From the NCBI GenBank assembly GCA_002803225.1, contig NXFV01000753.1, forward strand, positions 40,911 through 104,910: a stretch of DNA of 64,000 nt. The letters are read 5' to 3'. The notes under the pieces were generated by a model. It saw only the letters and a program-made list of their open reading frames with translations. It had not been told where the DNA came from and searched no databases. The stretch comes from Gamarada debralockiae. Its lineage: Eukaryota; Ascomycota; Leotiomycetes; Helotiales; Hyphodiscaceae. Made by a program: the position numbers and the translations under genes. Below are positions 3,343 to 33,370 of the stretch, piece by piece (the first letter of the stretch is position 1; the number at the start of each line of letters is the position of its first letter).

Positions 3343-4558
3343 ATGGCCTCCTGCCGCGACCTTTCTACTCTTCTGGCGACACCAATCAGCGATCCCATTC
3401 CTGAAGACGCCCTCAAAGAGATCATCGCCACATACCCCTTCATCCCAATTCCCCACGTCCTCAACCTCAGGCCATTTCCCACTCAAACTCATCCTCGTTC
3501 GGGAGCGCTCTCTCATCTCCCTGCCACATCTTTGGCCCCATTGCAAGATACCTACAACATAAGAACAATTTTCGACCTCCGCAACCAATCAGAACGGGTA
3601 TCGTCTCCCTCACTGAGAACCCCTGTATCAAAACGATTTCGACCCCAAGCGGAGTGGATGCCGCGATCCGTGCCAAGCCATCGGGATAAAGTCATTGGAG
3701 GATCAATATTCCTACTGCGGATTTCGTCGAAAACCAAGGGAACGACTGATATGTAAAGATGTACAGTGCTGTGCTAGAGACGCATAGGGGGCCTTACAAA
3801 GCCGTTTTTGAGACTCGCAGGGATGGAGACGGAGGTATGTTTTTTCACTGTACTGGTTCGTCAGATTATTTCACCCCTTTTTGCTGCCCCACATTACCCC
3901 TGTCAGGAATATTGCCTGAAATATCAGTATGTTGCCTGAAGAGCTGAGGCATACGGAACCCGAACTCGGGGGTCGAGGAGCCATCGGAAACCGATAGCTA
4001 GAGTCAAGCTATAGTTATATTGGATGCATTGAGCTCTGTAGGAGTGCAAGAATGAAGTTAAGTTCATCTGGAGCATCACTTCCCCGAAGCTCATATACTA
4101 GCGTCCACGTGACCCTTTGCACCCGCCAACCCTATATTTCTGACAACCCCGCCCCCTTTTCTGTCTTCACGTGACTTGATATACTTTGCTGATTCTCGTC
4201 CGAATGCAGCCGGCAAAGACCGCACCGGCATACTCTCTGCTCTATCCCTTCTTGAAGCGCCAGACCATGTAATAGCTCAAGGCTACGCACTCACGTATTG
4301 GCACGGAGCCCTTCCGAGACATCTTGTTGGGGAAACTATTGGAGCAGATGGAAGAGGATGGAAAGGGGCTAGGGCTGGATACCCCTGGAATGGGAGAAAT
4401 GTGTTCGGTGAGGGGTCCAACTATTTTGCCGTTCTTAAAGTCTATGGATGATAGATGGGGTGGCGATGGGAATGGAGTGAAGGGATACTTGACTTAGGAG
4501 CTGGGTCTAAGAGAGGAGGATCTGGCAAAGATCAGAGAGAAGCTCACAGCTGGGAAGA
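3343..4558 (+). pseudogene. Tyrosine/dual-specificity phosphatase (Y_phosphatase3-like), broken
   Basis: The N-terminus (residues 1-85) ends in YNIRTIFDLRNQSER, typical of fungal tyrosine phosphatases of the Y_phosphatase3/Siw14-like type. The frame then shifts and passes two in-frame stops before VKMYSAVLETHRGPYKAVFE. The catalytic loop is split. HCT is encoded just before 3856 and AGKDRTG just after 4209. Splicing from the GT at 3856 to the AG at 4209 would restore HCTAGKDRTG exactly, so a 354-nt intron interrupts the P-loop. This is long compared with the other introns here. Downstream, a second frameshift near 4300 is needed to continue into EPFRDILLGKLLEQMEEDG, and a further TAG interrupts the tail. 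Several independent lesions argue for a pseudogene. The ancestral enzyme would have dephosphorylated a phosphotyrosine or phosphoinositide-like substrate. Confidence 0.72.
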
Positions 4559-5817
4559 CATAGATATTTGGAACAGCGATAGAGCTTCAGGCGGTCTTAT
4601 GAGTTAGAGTAAATGATAGATAATGTTTTTTGGCTATTTACTTGACTCTTCTACTTTTCCTGGAGGCTCTATACTCTGAACTCTGAGCGTTGTTTTCGTG
4701 GTCAGGAAGGGTGCTACTCAAGAACAGACGAATACCATACCGTTTGATTTGATCTGAGATTTTCTATATGTTCTACCCAAGAAAGTTAGGGGCTGAGGCT
4801 TTGAACGCATTGGATAGATGGAAAGTGATTGCAAAGAAACAGGTTTGACATCGCTAACCAGAAACCGTAATAGTAGCTGATATGTTTGATAGATTCATGA
4901 TGCCTATAGTTTGCTGACTTGCGGAGGAGGGCTTAAGTCATCTATACTAACTCCTCTCGTCCGTTCCAATTTTCCATTTGTTCCTGCTCAACGCAAGCGA
5001 TTGCGTGGAAAGACTTTGGGGTAAAACTGGTTGGTAATTGTAGCTTGAGCAATTGAAGTGCAATCTTCGGAGAAAATGAAACCTAGACTTTATGAATATA
5101 ATAGTCGTCACAATTCCGCCAATTCTTTAAGGCTCTCGTAGCAGACTTTTTATCGTAACATATTACTCTTACTTTGAAGTCTTTTTGAACAGACTTGGTG
5201 TTTGCGCTTTTCTTCTGTTTTATATTAAATTAAATACCAATACACCACAGAGTTCTAGTCTTTAGTTTCATCGTGTTACTATGTTCACGACAAATTTCAA
5301 AAACCTATACTCTACGACACATTCACTTCGCAACTGTCAGGTGTCAACTGTTGTTCAGGTATCAACCCTTTGCTGACAAAGTACTTAAGCATCCCTTCTC
5401 TCCCTCACAACAACCTTCACTCCCCCTATATAGACTTATAACAAAGCGGCCAAACAACCTTCACATCAAAGAAATTCAAAGAGTAAGTCTCGCCCTCCAC
5501 CCTCCCCTCGCGTAATTGGCGAGCCCTAACGGCCCGACCTAGACTCCGAGTTGCAGCGGCCGCACCAGAGCCGCAATGAATCTGCTATTGAATTGTTTAT
5601 GGAATTGATGCCGTCGGAGTCATCGTTCGACAATTACGCACAAAGCTTTTGCAAAAATCAAGCTTGCAAAGCTTGCAAACTTCCTCCTCCAAACTTTCAT
5701 CCAACTCGACGAAACATCAAGTCAATCCACTCCTCAGAAAGTCTTCTTCTCACAAGACGGATTGATATCTTCGAGTCATTGAAAGGAATCTCTCAAATCG
5801 TCATATCTTGAAGACCA
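4559..5817. other. Intergenic / 5' flank of the 5.8-7.9 kb gene pair
   Basis: No coding region with a recognised motif. The part from about 5200 on is AT-rich and includes pyrimidine- and CAA-rich stretches (about 5330-5480) like fungal promoters. A GTAAGT at 5484 could be a donor for a 5'UTR intron. Open frames at 5273-5515 and 5551-5811 lack a convincing ATG and family motifs. Confidence 0.4.
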
Positions 5818-30589: not shown

Positions 30590-30674
30590 TTTTCCAACAC
30601 TGTTGCTTTTCCAACACTGTTGCTTTTCCAACACTGTTGCTTTTCCAACACTGTTGCTTTTCCAACGCTGTCGC
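30590..30674. repeat. Tandem repeat, 17-bp unit x 5
   Basis: Five head-to-tail copies of TTTTCCAACACTGTTGC. The first four are identical; the fifth has two substitutions (ACGCTGTCGC at its end). The near-identity suggests recent expansion. It lies about 340 nt upstream of the small secreted-protein gene. Confidence 0.95.
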
Positions 30675-30899: not shown

Positions 30900-31012
30900 T
30901 ATATAGATGCTCTTTTGTCTTCTTCAATTATCTCTCTATTCTCTTTTCCATTATTTTCTTCTCCAAAAATTACTGAGCTCCCCATACTACACTCAATTAA
31001 CTAACTGCAAAT
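30900..31012 (+). promoter_or_regulatory. Promoter/leader of the microexon gene: TATA-like site and CT-rich tract
   Basis: TATATAG at 30900-30906 lies 107 nt before the ATG at 31013. It is followed by a pyrimidine-rich tract at about 30908-30963 (CTTTTGTCTTCTTC and similar) and an A-rich leader (CTAACTGCAAAT) directly before the start. TATA plus CT-rich leader is common at strongly or inducibly expressed fungal genes. No specific factor site is claimed. Confidence 0.5.
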
Positions 31013-31839
31013 ATGCGCATTCAAATTATCGCTGCCGCCCTCTTGCTCTCTATTAGCAGTGTGCAGGCAGCTATCCCATCGCTTATTTCAAGGTAAAAAA
31101 ATCACTACTACACGGAAGTCTTCTCTTCACACTTACTTCTTTCCTTAAGAATACTTTTGCTTACCGCCTCTCTTCTTTCTATATAGCATCTACAAACGAG
31201 GCGAGACTAGCGTACCCCCAGCCCGTATTCACGCCCGTGATATCGCGCCCGATTTCCACAAGCACGTTCTCGTCCGCGACCCAGGTGATATAGATGATAT
31301 ACTTGATGAGATTGATGACGTCCTAGAGGAAGTAAGTGTTGACATCTACTATAATTAATATAATGAGTCGATAGAAGACTAATGATACATAATAACTATA
31401 TAGAGTGTAAGTAGTGATCCTGAGCTATAAGTGGTGTGATAACGACGATAGATGATTAATGATAGAATAGGCTGTAAGTATTTATATCTACTATAAGCAA
31501 TAAGACACTATTATAGGCTTACGATGTCTAATGGTTAAATAGGAAGTAAGCAAATAAATTCCTTGTGGCTGATTGGATGTTAAGCATGGATAACTAACGG
31601 CTCTAACGGCGGCATAGGACGTACGTAATAACATCTCCCATAAGTAACGAGATAACAGTATAACCTAATAATAAATTAGTTTGTCAGGGGATACGTCCAA
31701 AAGGTAAGTAACAATGCATTCACAATTAATAAAATAACTTCTAACAAGGCATATGTATCCAGGGAGGAGAGCGTCGTTAAGCTACTGTAAGGGTTACAAT
31801 CTCCCTAGCTATATAAGAAGTCTAAATACAATCGGCTGA
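31013..31839 (+). CDS. Small secreted protein gene with four consecutive 3-nt exons
   Basis: Exon 1 (31013-31092) encodes a clear signal peptide, MRIQIIAAALLLSISSVQA. Exon 2 (31187-31331) follows a 94-nt intron and carries a Kex2-like KR (IYKRGETS) and an acidic end, DDILDEIDDVLEE. Then come candidate microexons AGT 31404-31406 (Ser), GCT 31471-31473 (Ala), GAA 31543-31545 (Glu) and GAC 31618-31620 (Asp). They are bounded by introns of 72, 64, 69, 72 and 67 nt with donors GTAAGT, GTAAGT, GTAAGT, GTAAGC, GTACGT, CTAAC/CTAAT/TTAAT-like branch sites and TAG or CAG acceptors. A 16-nt exon (31688-31703) reads GIRPK. Its intron may end at 31762 (CTAAC 17 nt upstream), giving a stop at 31839 and 109 aa, or at 31748, giving a stop at 31780 and 94 aa. 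All microexons are phase 0, so skipping any keeps the frame. Function is unknown; it could be an effector-like or processed peptide. Confidence 0.55.
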
Positions 31840-31842
31840 CAA

Positions 31843-31922
31843 GAGAGGAGATGGAGCAGAGAGGAGATGGAGCAGAGAGGAGATGGAGCAGAGAGGAGAT
31901 GGAGCAGAGAGGAGATGGAGCA
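31843..31922. repeat. Tandem repeat, 16-bp unit x 5
   Basis: Five perfect copies of GAGAGGAGATGGAGCA followed by a degenerate partial copy. It begins four nt after the later possible stop codon of the microexon gene. The unit is not a multiple of three, so it is unlikely to be selected as coding sequence. Confidence 0.95.
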
Positions 31923-33370
31923 GAGAGGGGGTAGGGCGGAGGCAACAACTGATGCATGGAGTTTCTTCTGCTCGAAGAAGGTTTAAGATCAGCCGGATTA
32001 ATAGAAGTTTCATTGTTCTAAGTTATGTACTTTATCCACTTAGCTTCTTCTTCCGCTACACCTATCACTGACCAATACATTGTCGTGCTAAATACCTAAC
32101 AAAATGTAGCGTCTACTGGATCAATGCCTGTAACTACCTTATTCTGGAACAGTTTGACAATTTCAAGTCTTGAAAATATTCTGAAGATTTAGAACGGCTG
32201 CTTAAATGACTTAGCTAATCAGGACACGATCTGACCTCAATCTCAACGGGCAGTTAAGGTCTCTAAATGGATCACGCCTTAAAAGGGCAACTCAGTCTCT
32301 GAATTAATGATCAACACCTTCACGTTAACTTTATCGCCTAGTGAGCTAGTAGACGTGGGAAGAGCTGCATTAGACGCGACATTATAGCTTTTCTGCCGTC
32401 ACCTAGCAATTTTACTTTGGCCAAAGATCTACAAGATATTCGAGGAGGCCTTTGACGAGAAGGGCTCGACACTTGCAATCATAATTCTGAGATCCTTTTA
32501 AAAACTTCTTGATGGGTGAAGAACGCTCTGAACGGAAAAATTAGGGTGCGCAAGGGGGGCGGGTGACTCACAAATACTTACAAGTAGTATACCCAGAGGG
32601 GTAGGTAGGGGGCTTTAGCCTACCTGCACTAGAGTTGGGTACTTCCCGCAGTACCTAGTTCCTATTTAATAGGTAACGGATAGACGTGCTTTTTTTTAAG
32701 GTCAATACAAAATTATATAAGATATATAAGGTGTATTAGTTTAAAATCATAAATATTTAGTATAATTAAGATTTTATAAGCTGACAGGGGGATGATGCTT
32801 GCTGCGGCTGTCCCAGGAGAGAAAATTTCGACCACTGCAAAAAATATAGCATTGTACTGGAAGCCAAGTGTTTCATGATGTGGGGCGCGGAGCTGAAAAG
32901 AAGGAAACCGGAAACAGGCATTTCCGAGGATACTAATTTGCGTCTACCTCGTGTGTTGCTTACGTTGATGCTAGCTGCACCAGGGGCGAAGGACGGATTG
33001 GTTGAAGAGATTCGGATATCTTCCGCATGTTGATGAAGATGATGCATGGTCAGTGGAGGGACGAAGAGGCCAATCGAGTGAAAAACATTTTAACTTGACT
33101 CCATACTCAGCGGCAAGGCTTCCTGAAATGATTTGAGTGATTGTTGTATTTCTTTGTGGGATGAGGATTTGTTGGACTCCCGGATTGATTTGGATGCCGT
33201 TGCGTCCAACGTAGAAAGAAACGAGCCATCGCGAGATGAGCGGACACACTTACCCAGCCATGCAACGAACACCTAATAATTTGGAGGATTCTTGTTTCTA
33301 ATTCCTCGCATCTACGAATTATGGTACATCATTATATCTGATTTCTTGTCCTTCCATCTCACGGCTTGGC
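31923..33370. other. Gene-poor, partly AT-rich region
   Basis: 32690-32770 is strongly AT-rich. Minus-strand frames at 32766-33047, 32971-33249 and 33090-33272 overlap in different phases, and no recognised domain emerges on joining them. No supported gene. Confidence 0.45.

Follow-up and report, generated by a model that had tools for sequence, protein, structure and literature searches.

Predicted single-codon exons in a Pup-related gene of Gamarada debralockiae and further codon-plus-intron arrays in its genome

Splicing joins exons of very different lengths, and the locus described here raises the question of whether four successive triplets, each lying between two complete introns, can all be exons. 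Exons of 1-3 nt are known in isolation; a series of 4 to 16 single-codon exons, however, would put the spliceosome to a repeated test with splice sites that are only three bases apart. The locus lies in a stretch of 64,000 nt (the window) on contig C347 of the G. debralockiae genome (54.3 Mb in 1112 contigs). Other genes in the window carry DBINO/SNF2, tyrosinase and amino-acid permease domains (Pfam), and HET-domain (heterokaryon incompatibility) genes occur elsewhere in the genome, a combination that suits a filamentous ascomycete.

Gene structure and Pup homology

A preliminary description of this locus had placed five introns in a row in a small secreted-protein gene, leaving AGT, GCT, GAA and GAC between them as phase 0 exons. 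The donors (at 31332, 31407, 31474, 31546 and 31621), the triplets and their phase are confirmed here, and every ladder intron is complete with a GT donor and an AG acceptor, neighbours lying 3 nt apart. The length range then given, 64-72 nt, holds for the first four introns (72, 64, 69 and 72 nt) but not for the fifth, which is now 59 nt long and ends in a TTAG acceptor. The 16-nt exon that had been proposed behind GAC is replaced by one of 24 nt, the acceptor having been misplaced by 8 nt: TTT GTC AGG GGA TAC GTC CAA AAG stands directly 3' of TTAG and 8 nt upstream of the CAG at 31687, and exon 8 opens with GGA GGA GAG. With the CAG acceptor the frame does run to a stop, at 31839, as had been claimed, but the homology behind GAC is then lost. 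The corrected coding sequence has 279 nt and seven introns, of which introns 2-7 are all phase 0 (Table 1). It follows by arithmetic that the skipping of a microexon removes a single residue and always leaves the frame intact. The corrected protein ends in DIDDILDEIDDVLEE-S-A-E-D-FVRGYVQKGGERR, where FVRGYVQKGGERR is FVRGYVQK-GGERR.

Table 1. Features of the gene, with positions in the window
Feature	Length (nt)	Position	Strand	Remarks
TATA-like box		30900..30906	+	TATATAG, upstream of the gene; read by eye; same letters in the paralog alignment
Exon 1	80	31013..31092	+	start codon and signal-peptide-like start MRIQIIAAALLLSISSVQA (judged by eye)
Exon 2	145	31187..31331	+	YKR site and DIDDILDEIDDVLEE; Pup match starts at 31287
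Intron 2	72	31332..31403	+	GTAAGT...TAG
Microexon 1	3	31404..31406	+	AGT, Ser76; Asn in 186/186 alignable bacterial-type Pups
Intron 3	64	31407..31470	+	GTAAGT...TAG
Microexon 2	3	31471..31473	+	GCT, Ala77; Ala in 184/186 and Ser in 2/186 alignable bacterial-type Pups
Intron 4	69	31474..31542	+	GTAAGT...TAG
Microexon 3	3	31543..31545	+	GAA, Glu78; Glu in 186/186 alignable bacterial-type Pups
Intron 5	72	31546..31617	+	GTAAGC...TAG
Microexon 4	3	31618..31620	+	GAC, Asp79; Glu in 98 and Asp in 88 of 186 alignable bacterial-type Pups
Intron 6	59	31621..31679	+	GTACGT...TTAG; acceptor revised, the CAG of the first reading ends at 31687
Exon 7	24	31680..31703	+	FVRGYVQK; Pup homology
Intron 7	59	31704..31762	+	GTAAGT...CAG
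Exon 8	18	31763..31780	+	GGERR and stop; Pup homology

Upstream of the gene, positions 30590-30670 of the window hold a tandem repeat with a unit of about 18 nt (TTTTCCAACACTGTTGC), and directly 3' of it, at 31845-31930, there is a minisatellite of GAGATGGAGCAGAGAG-like units.

The corrected protein matches the Pfam family Pup (PF05639) with 62.1 bits (E 9.8e-17, curated cut-off 27) at profile positions 40-69 of 69, and with 45.8 bits once the four microexon residues are removed; the match covers only about 30 residues of the protein. When the CAG acceptor is used, Pup is the one Pfam family matched (29.2 bits against the cut-off of 27), and the match includes the microexon-encoded SAED. In Pup the next residues are FVRxYVQKGG(Q/E). 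The same CAG model gave seven matches at E<=1 among the sequences of solved structures, six of which are Pup (best E 1.9e-4), and one match, P0001, in a protein search. The idea that P0001 had been matched by chance was dropped once Pfam named the same family.

Splice forms were compared by means of an HMM built from 116 bacterial-type Pups, with P0001, P0002, P0003 and P0016 left out. Among 32 splice forms and the read-through, the form with all four microexons and the TTAG acceptor scored best (62.3 bits). The next best form reached 55.0 bits, the form with no microexon 44.8 and the read-through 20.9; the CAG acceptor with all four microexons gave 31.0, and the final exon from the CAG at 31687 was rejected on this comparison. 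Random codons placed at the four microexon positions reached the full-inclusion score in only 1 of 2000 sets. The residue counts in Table 1 come from the 186 of 219 bacterial-type Pups that were alignable by a text pattern, the other 33 being unmatched. A GGQ or GGE C-terminus is present in 214 of the 219 bacterial-type Pup matches; the window protein has GGE followed by RR, for which trimming by Kex1 is assumed.

That the Pup homology runs through SAED is our main reason for taking the microexons as coding. The ladder is real, and, judged by this homology, its microexons very probably encode part of a Pup-related protein, an estimate that leaves the target of the peptide aside. The homology thus supports what the preliminary description had proposed, namely a small secreted-protein gene with four 3-nt exons in succession. 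Its acidic tail stands in so far as SAED would be coding residues, and the tail is now identified as the Pup C-terminal region.

The likeness to Pup lies in the C-terminal region LDEIDDVLEExAEDFVRxYVQKGGE, which scores above the curated cut-off. In contrast to Pup, the window protein has a signal-peptide-like start, two additional Arg after GGE and no detected ligase, and it is encoded on a fungal contig by a gene with seven introns. PafA couples the C-terminal glutamate of Pup to lysines, and a review describes the pupylation pathway as exclusively of bacterial origin (PMC8223512). A six-frame search of the genome with PF03136 (PafA/Dop) gave no match at E<=1, while the control, Corynebacterium glutamicum, was matched. 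The corresponding six-frame search with PF05639 returned nothing at E<=10, the window gene included; since the exons of this gene are too short for such a search, other split Pups are possible. The window protein is therefore a relative of Pup that does not belong to a Pup-proteasome system of its own genome. That a eukaryote should have a Pup with a secretion signal is in itself surprising.

Predicted processing and secreted-looking relatives

The gene would encode a precursor with a signal-peptide-like start and a Pup-like C-terminus in which S76, A77, E78 and D79 are each encoded by a separate 3-nt exon. Introns 2-7 (59-72 nt) carry full splice signals and are presumably removed singly by intron definition. 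Recognition of short introns in fungi works across the intron, so that a 3-nt exon is possible provided that the introns on either side of it are removed one after the other. Once the protein is secreted, cleavage by Kex2 at KR and trimming of the final RR by Kex1 would leave GGE, the form used by the ligase PafA. Taken together, the signal-peptide-like start, the KR and RR sites and the GGE end suggest a processed, secreted Pup. Given that no gene of the PafA/Dop family was detected in the genome, a target outside the cell is likeliest. The peptide probably acts extracellularly, perhaps, though this is a guess, on the pupylation or proteasome machinery of actinobacteria.

Pup-like proteins were collected in two protein searches, as the best 120 of 701 and the best 120 of 7989 matches. 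Among the best 120 of 701, a simple hydropathy cut found a hydrophobic start in 13. Four of these, P0001, P0002, P0003 and P0016, look secreted and are all metagenomic; the remaining nine, such as P0068 and P0082, look like fused or mis-predicted bacterial Pups. P0001 has two Pup units, P0003 has three, the first two of which are followed by KKR or KR, and P0016 has KKR just before its Pup part. With signal-peptide-like starts, one to three Pup tails and dibasic sites, the four proteins resemble poly-Pup precursors, and they appear to be of fungal origin. They share with the window protein the order of a signal-peptide-like start and Pup tails, but they are continuous frames in the database, compared here as proteins only. 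In its peptide units with dibasic sites, P0003 also recalls the Kex2-processed repeat proteins (KEPs), although the window protein has a single Pup unit where P0003 has three.

The ladder against chance, and a second copy of the gene

Strict splice words (donor GTA[AC]G[TC], acceptor YAG, introns of 50-85 nt) were used to scan the whole window on both strands. Four 3-nt-exon links were found, all within this ladder, and the opposite strand had no link; with other exon sizes from 0 to 24 nt, there was one link each for 8, 16 and 24 nt only. Of 100 dinucleotide shuffles, 97 had a longest 3-nt chain of 0 and the remaining 3 one of 1. A relaxed scan of nine sequences (GTRNGN donors, AAG acceptors allowed, exons of 2, 3, 4, 5, 6 and 9 nt) also produced one chain of four 2-nt 'exons', in L004, and loose criteria alone are thus no proof.

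At their 5' ends, introns 2, 4 and 6 of the gene have a 34-nt stretch in common (79% and 71%); a 19-nt stretch (89%) is common to introns 2 and 3, and some copying also among the window introns is apparent from this. The derivation of all window introns from one repeat nevertheless found no support: only 3 of the 21 intron pairs beat shuffles at p<0.05, two of them marginally.

A DNA search revealed a copy of the gene on contig C332 that is 83% identical. In this paralog microexons 2 and 3 are unchanged and microexon 1 is changed at all three bases, intron 5 has lost four donor bases and the acceptor AG, and intron 7 is interrupted by roughly 1.6 kb of inserted sequence with long inverted repeats on its flanks (between position 1578 of L003 and position 1508 of L002). 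Against Pup its exons 1 and 2 stay below the cut-off at 16.8 bits, and adding its first three triplets gives 19.2 bits. Over exons 1 and 2 of the gene pair, pN is 0.114 and pS 0.147, which indicates little constraint. Donor letters are identical at 38 of 42 positions, acceptor letters at 15 of 18 and intron interiors at 84.6%; with no clear excess over the interiors, splice-site conservation in the pair was discarded as proof of the ladder. The C332 copy may be decaying, and it gives the ladder no support by itself.

Codon-plus-intron arrays elsewhere in the genome

The layout had been called remarkable and without a described family. Indeed, in the open-access literature on fungal microexons, tiny or 3-nt exons, introners, stwintrons and Pup in fungi, as far as its text was available, neither a single-codon-exon ladder nor a eukaryotic Pup was found among the matches listed. 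However, the layout is not unique to this gene, and the window ladder is one of several codon-plus-intron arrays that form a class in the same genome.

The two-rung 3-nt pattern has 28 matches in the genome, in six places (C16, C17, C258, C332, C347 and C835), against 5 for the backwards pattern. One-rung patterns matched 33 times for a 3-nt exon (30 in the six ladder places and 3 single) and 6, 3 and 5 times for exons of 4, 6 and 9 nt. Since the backwards controls for 3, 4, 6 and 9 nt (18, 29, 16 and 13) are not low, it is the chaining and not the raw count that is telling. Ladders with GTATGT donors gave five matches, two of them in one simple repeat, and those with GTGAGT donors two.

The C835 ladder (C835:46501-56400, at about 3870-5270 of that stretch) consists of a signal-peptide-like exon, MRVQALVLGLMVALTVALPTDLPVNLKQSLEAR, and 16 microexons, DCPDDCCFDAGFAGCF, which encode a Cys-rich stretch; a stop lies directly 3' of one possible last acceptor. 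On the minus strand of C258, 13 microexons (AEEPDFPRRRDEM) stand between a first exon and an open frame to a HET domain. On C16, also on the minus strand, at least 5 microexons with alternating Asp and Tyr codons precede another HET domain. The C16/C17 ladder lies at two contig ends, with C17 as its apparent continuation across the gap, and the assembly probably breaks within it. From the frames we infer that the C835, C258 and C16 ladders are each one gene.

With the window region and the C835 and C258 loci as queries, DNA searches (best candidates scored, very common words skipped) found no dispersed copies of the ladder introns, the matches being the C332 paralog and flanks. C961 and C326 were rejected as further ladders: their likeness to the C258 and C835 loci is confined to the flanks, and the stretches scanned there contain no chain of at least three 3-nt exons. 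On the minus strand of C961, a stretch located 5' of an unrelated-looking gene has 77% identity to the upstream region of the C258 gene, as if a promoter were shared. Since the repeat units of C258 mostly measure 69 nt, the opposite (plus) strand of that ladder (L016 4544-5097) is open in repetitive frames of 106 and 115 codons, which are probably meaningless. In the C835 array an Ala-Gly-(Phe) block recurs, as if three cassettes had been duplicated together. A scan of viral contigs gave three loci, L060-L062.

We show here that the introns of the C835, C258 and C16 arrays are tandem repeats with nearly constant splice sites, and that codons have changed faster than introns in two of these three arrays, C835 and C258. 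Mean identity is 79%, 73% and 88% for the introns of C835, C258 and C16, and 38%, 35% and 80% for their triplets. The most variable three-column window of the repeat unit is the triplet itself in C835 (4.41 bits, first of 83) and in C258 (4.46 bits, first of 79). Relative to the best-matching flanking introns, 12 of 33 codon letters differ in C835 (3.6 expected) and 16 of 27 in C258 (4.0 expected), the first two C258 units being left out of both analyses; in the C16 array, 1 of 9 letters differs where 1.0 is expected, so that codons are not in excess. Greater variation in codons than in the introns beside them reverses the usual pattern and suggests peptide growth one residue at a time.

None of the 38 microexons is a stop codon, a weak result, since chance alone would give about two. 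Of the 40 introns of ladder genes, 39 have a branch-like YTRAY 9-45 nt upstream of their 3' end, compared with 1248 of 4000 base-shuffled ones (31%), and the motif stands at exactly 24 nt in 12/16, 10/13 and 5/5 introns of C835, C258 and C16.

Alternative explanations, origin and known systems

The removal of a single large intron, 31332-31679, would make the triplets never exonic and the Pup-like peptide four residues shorter. The frame would stay open, the Pup match would still reach 45.8 bits, and the paralog with its damaged intron 5 could work in this way. However, such splicing would break the helix register common to Pups, turn 16 bits of homology into coincidence and leave five complete introns without a reason to persist, and we regard it as very unlikely. 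Recursive or stwintron-like splicing, in which the triplets are re-splice sites only and leave with the next intron, draws on the stwintron literature, according to which consecutive introns, and introns nested in one another, occur commonly in some ascomycetes. Here, though, every intron has a complete donor and acceptor, so that nothing is interrupted, and the Pup score falls when the triplets are lost; this is the least probable of the readings, and extremely so.

The ladders could also be minisatellites with chance splice-like words, and the window gene a decaying pseudogene. Consistent with this, the units repeat in C835, C258 and C16, stretches of 34 nt (introns 2, 4 and 6) and 19 nt (introns 2 and 3) are shared in the window gene, although only 3 of 21 pairs beat shuffles, the paralog is damaged, and the backwards-pattern controls are not low. 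Yet Pup homology spans the triplets, the three most variable columns fall exactly between AG and GT, and the frames fit on either side of the C258 and C16 ladders, which makes this account highly improbable. If instead the microexons are real and the Pup likeness is convergence on an acidic helix, the shortness of the match (about 30 residues) and the acidity of the region would be explained. This seems very improbable too, since the match reaches the last profile position and includes the non-acidic FVRxYVQKGGE, and since metagenomic proteins with signal-peptide-like starts carry Pup tails.

If the microexons are coding, as we prefer, tandem duplication of an AG-N3-GT unit would add one intron and one in-frame codon at a time, and would explain how the C835, C258 and C16 arrays grew. 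For the window gene this is no simple account, since SAED has the canonical Pup length; here it seems either that introns were inserted between codons already present or that a longer array has been shortened. In a broader reading, which we find doubtful as a whole, codon-plus-intron cassettes would be a device to grow and diversify proteins: single codons are added in frame, codons outpace introns, and subsets can be skipped to give many peptides per gene, one gene being built on an actinobacterial Pup and secreting a ligatable Pup mimic against actinobacterial pupylation. If this were true, 16 cassettes would allow 65,536 forms. Ladder genes would easily escape annotation, as 3-nt exons are hard to map.

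Splicing of exons of 3 nt or less has been described for isolated 3-nt and 1-nt cases in Drosophila hth and troponin T, NCAM and plant APC11 and VPS55 (PMC7392893, PMC8831610). In the parts of these sources consulted, unlike here, they occur singly, and no more than two microexons (5 and 12 nt) are mentioned as neighbours. Among fungi, Trichoderma Xlr2 has one regulated microexon, and the accessible text calls functional microexons undescribed earlier in filamentous fungi (2024, PMC11121469); Phanerochaete P450 genes have predicted microexons down to 6 bp (2005, PMC1184071). Both resemble the window gene in their very short exons, but the available portions of these papers describe no ladder. 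Stwintrons and introner-like elements of ascomycetes, as partly surveyed, share with this locus the multiplication of introns in fungi. Unlike in stwintrons, no splice element is interrupted in the window gene, the introns being complete, side by side and repeated locally, and unlike for introner-like elements, near-identical copies of the ladder introns in many unrelated genes were not found among the best candidates. The micro-exon genes (MEGs) of schistosomes encode secreted proteins from very small, frame-preserving exons, with most of the coding sequence in microexons. The 3-nt exons of the window gene likewise preserve the frame, all being phase 0, but they are one codon each, lie in repeated introns and form a minority of the coding sequence: 12 of 279 nt, or 54 of 279 nt when the 24- and 18-nt exons are counted, which is short of the majority found in MEGs.
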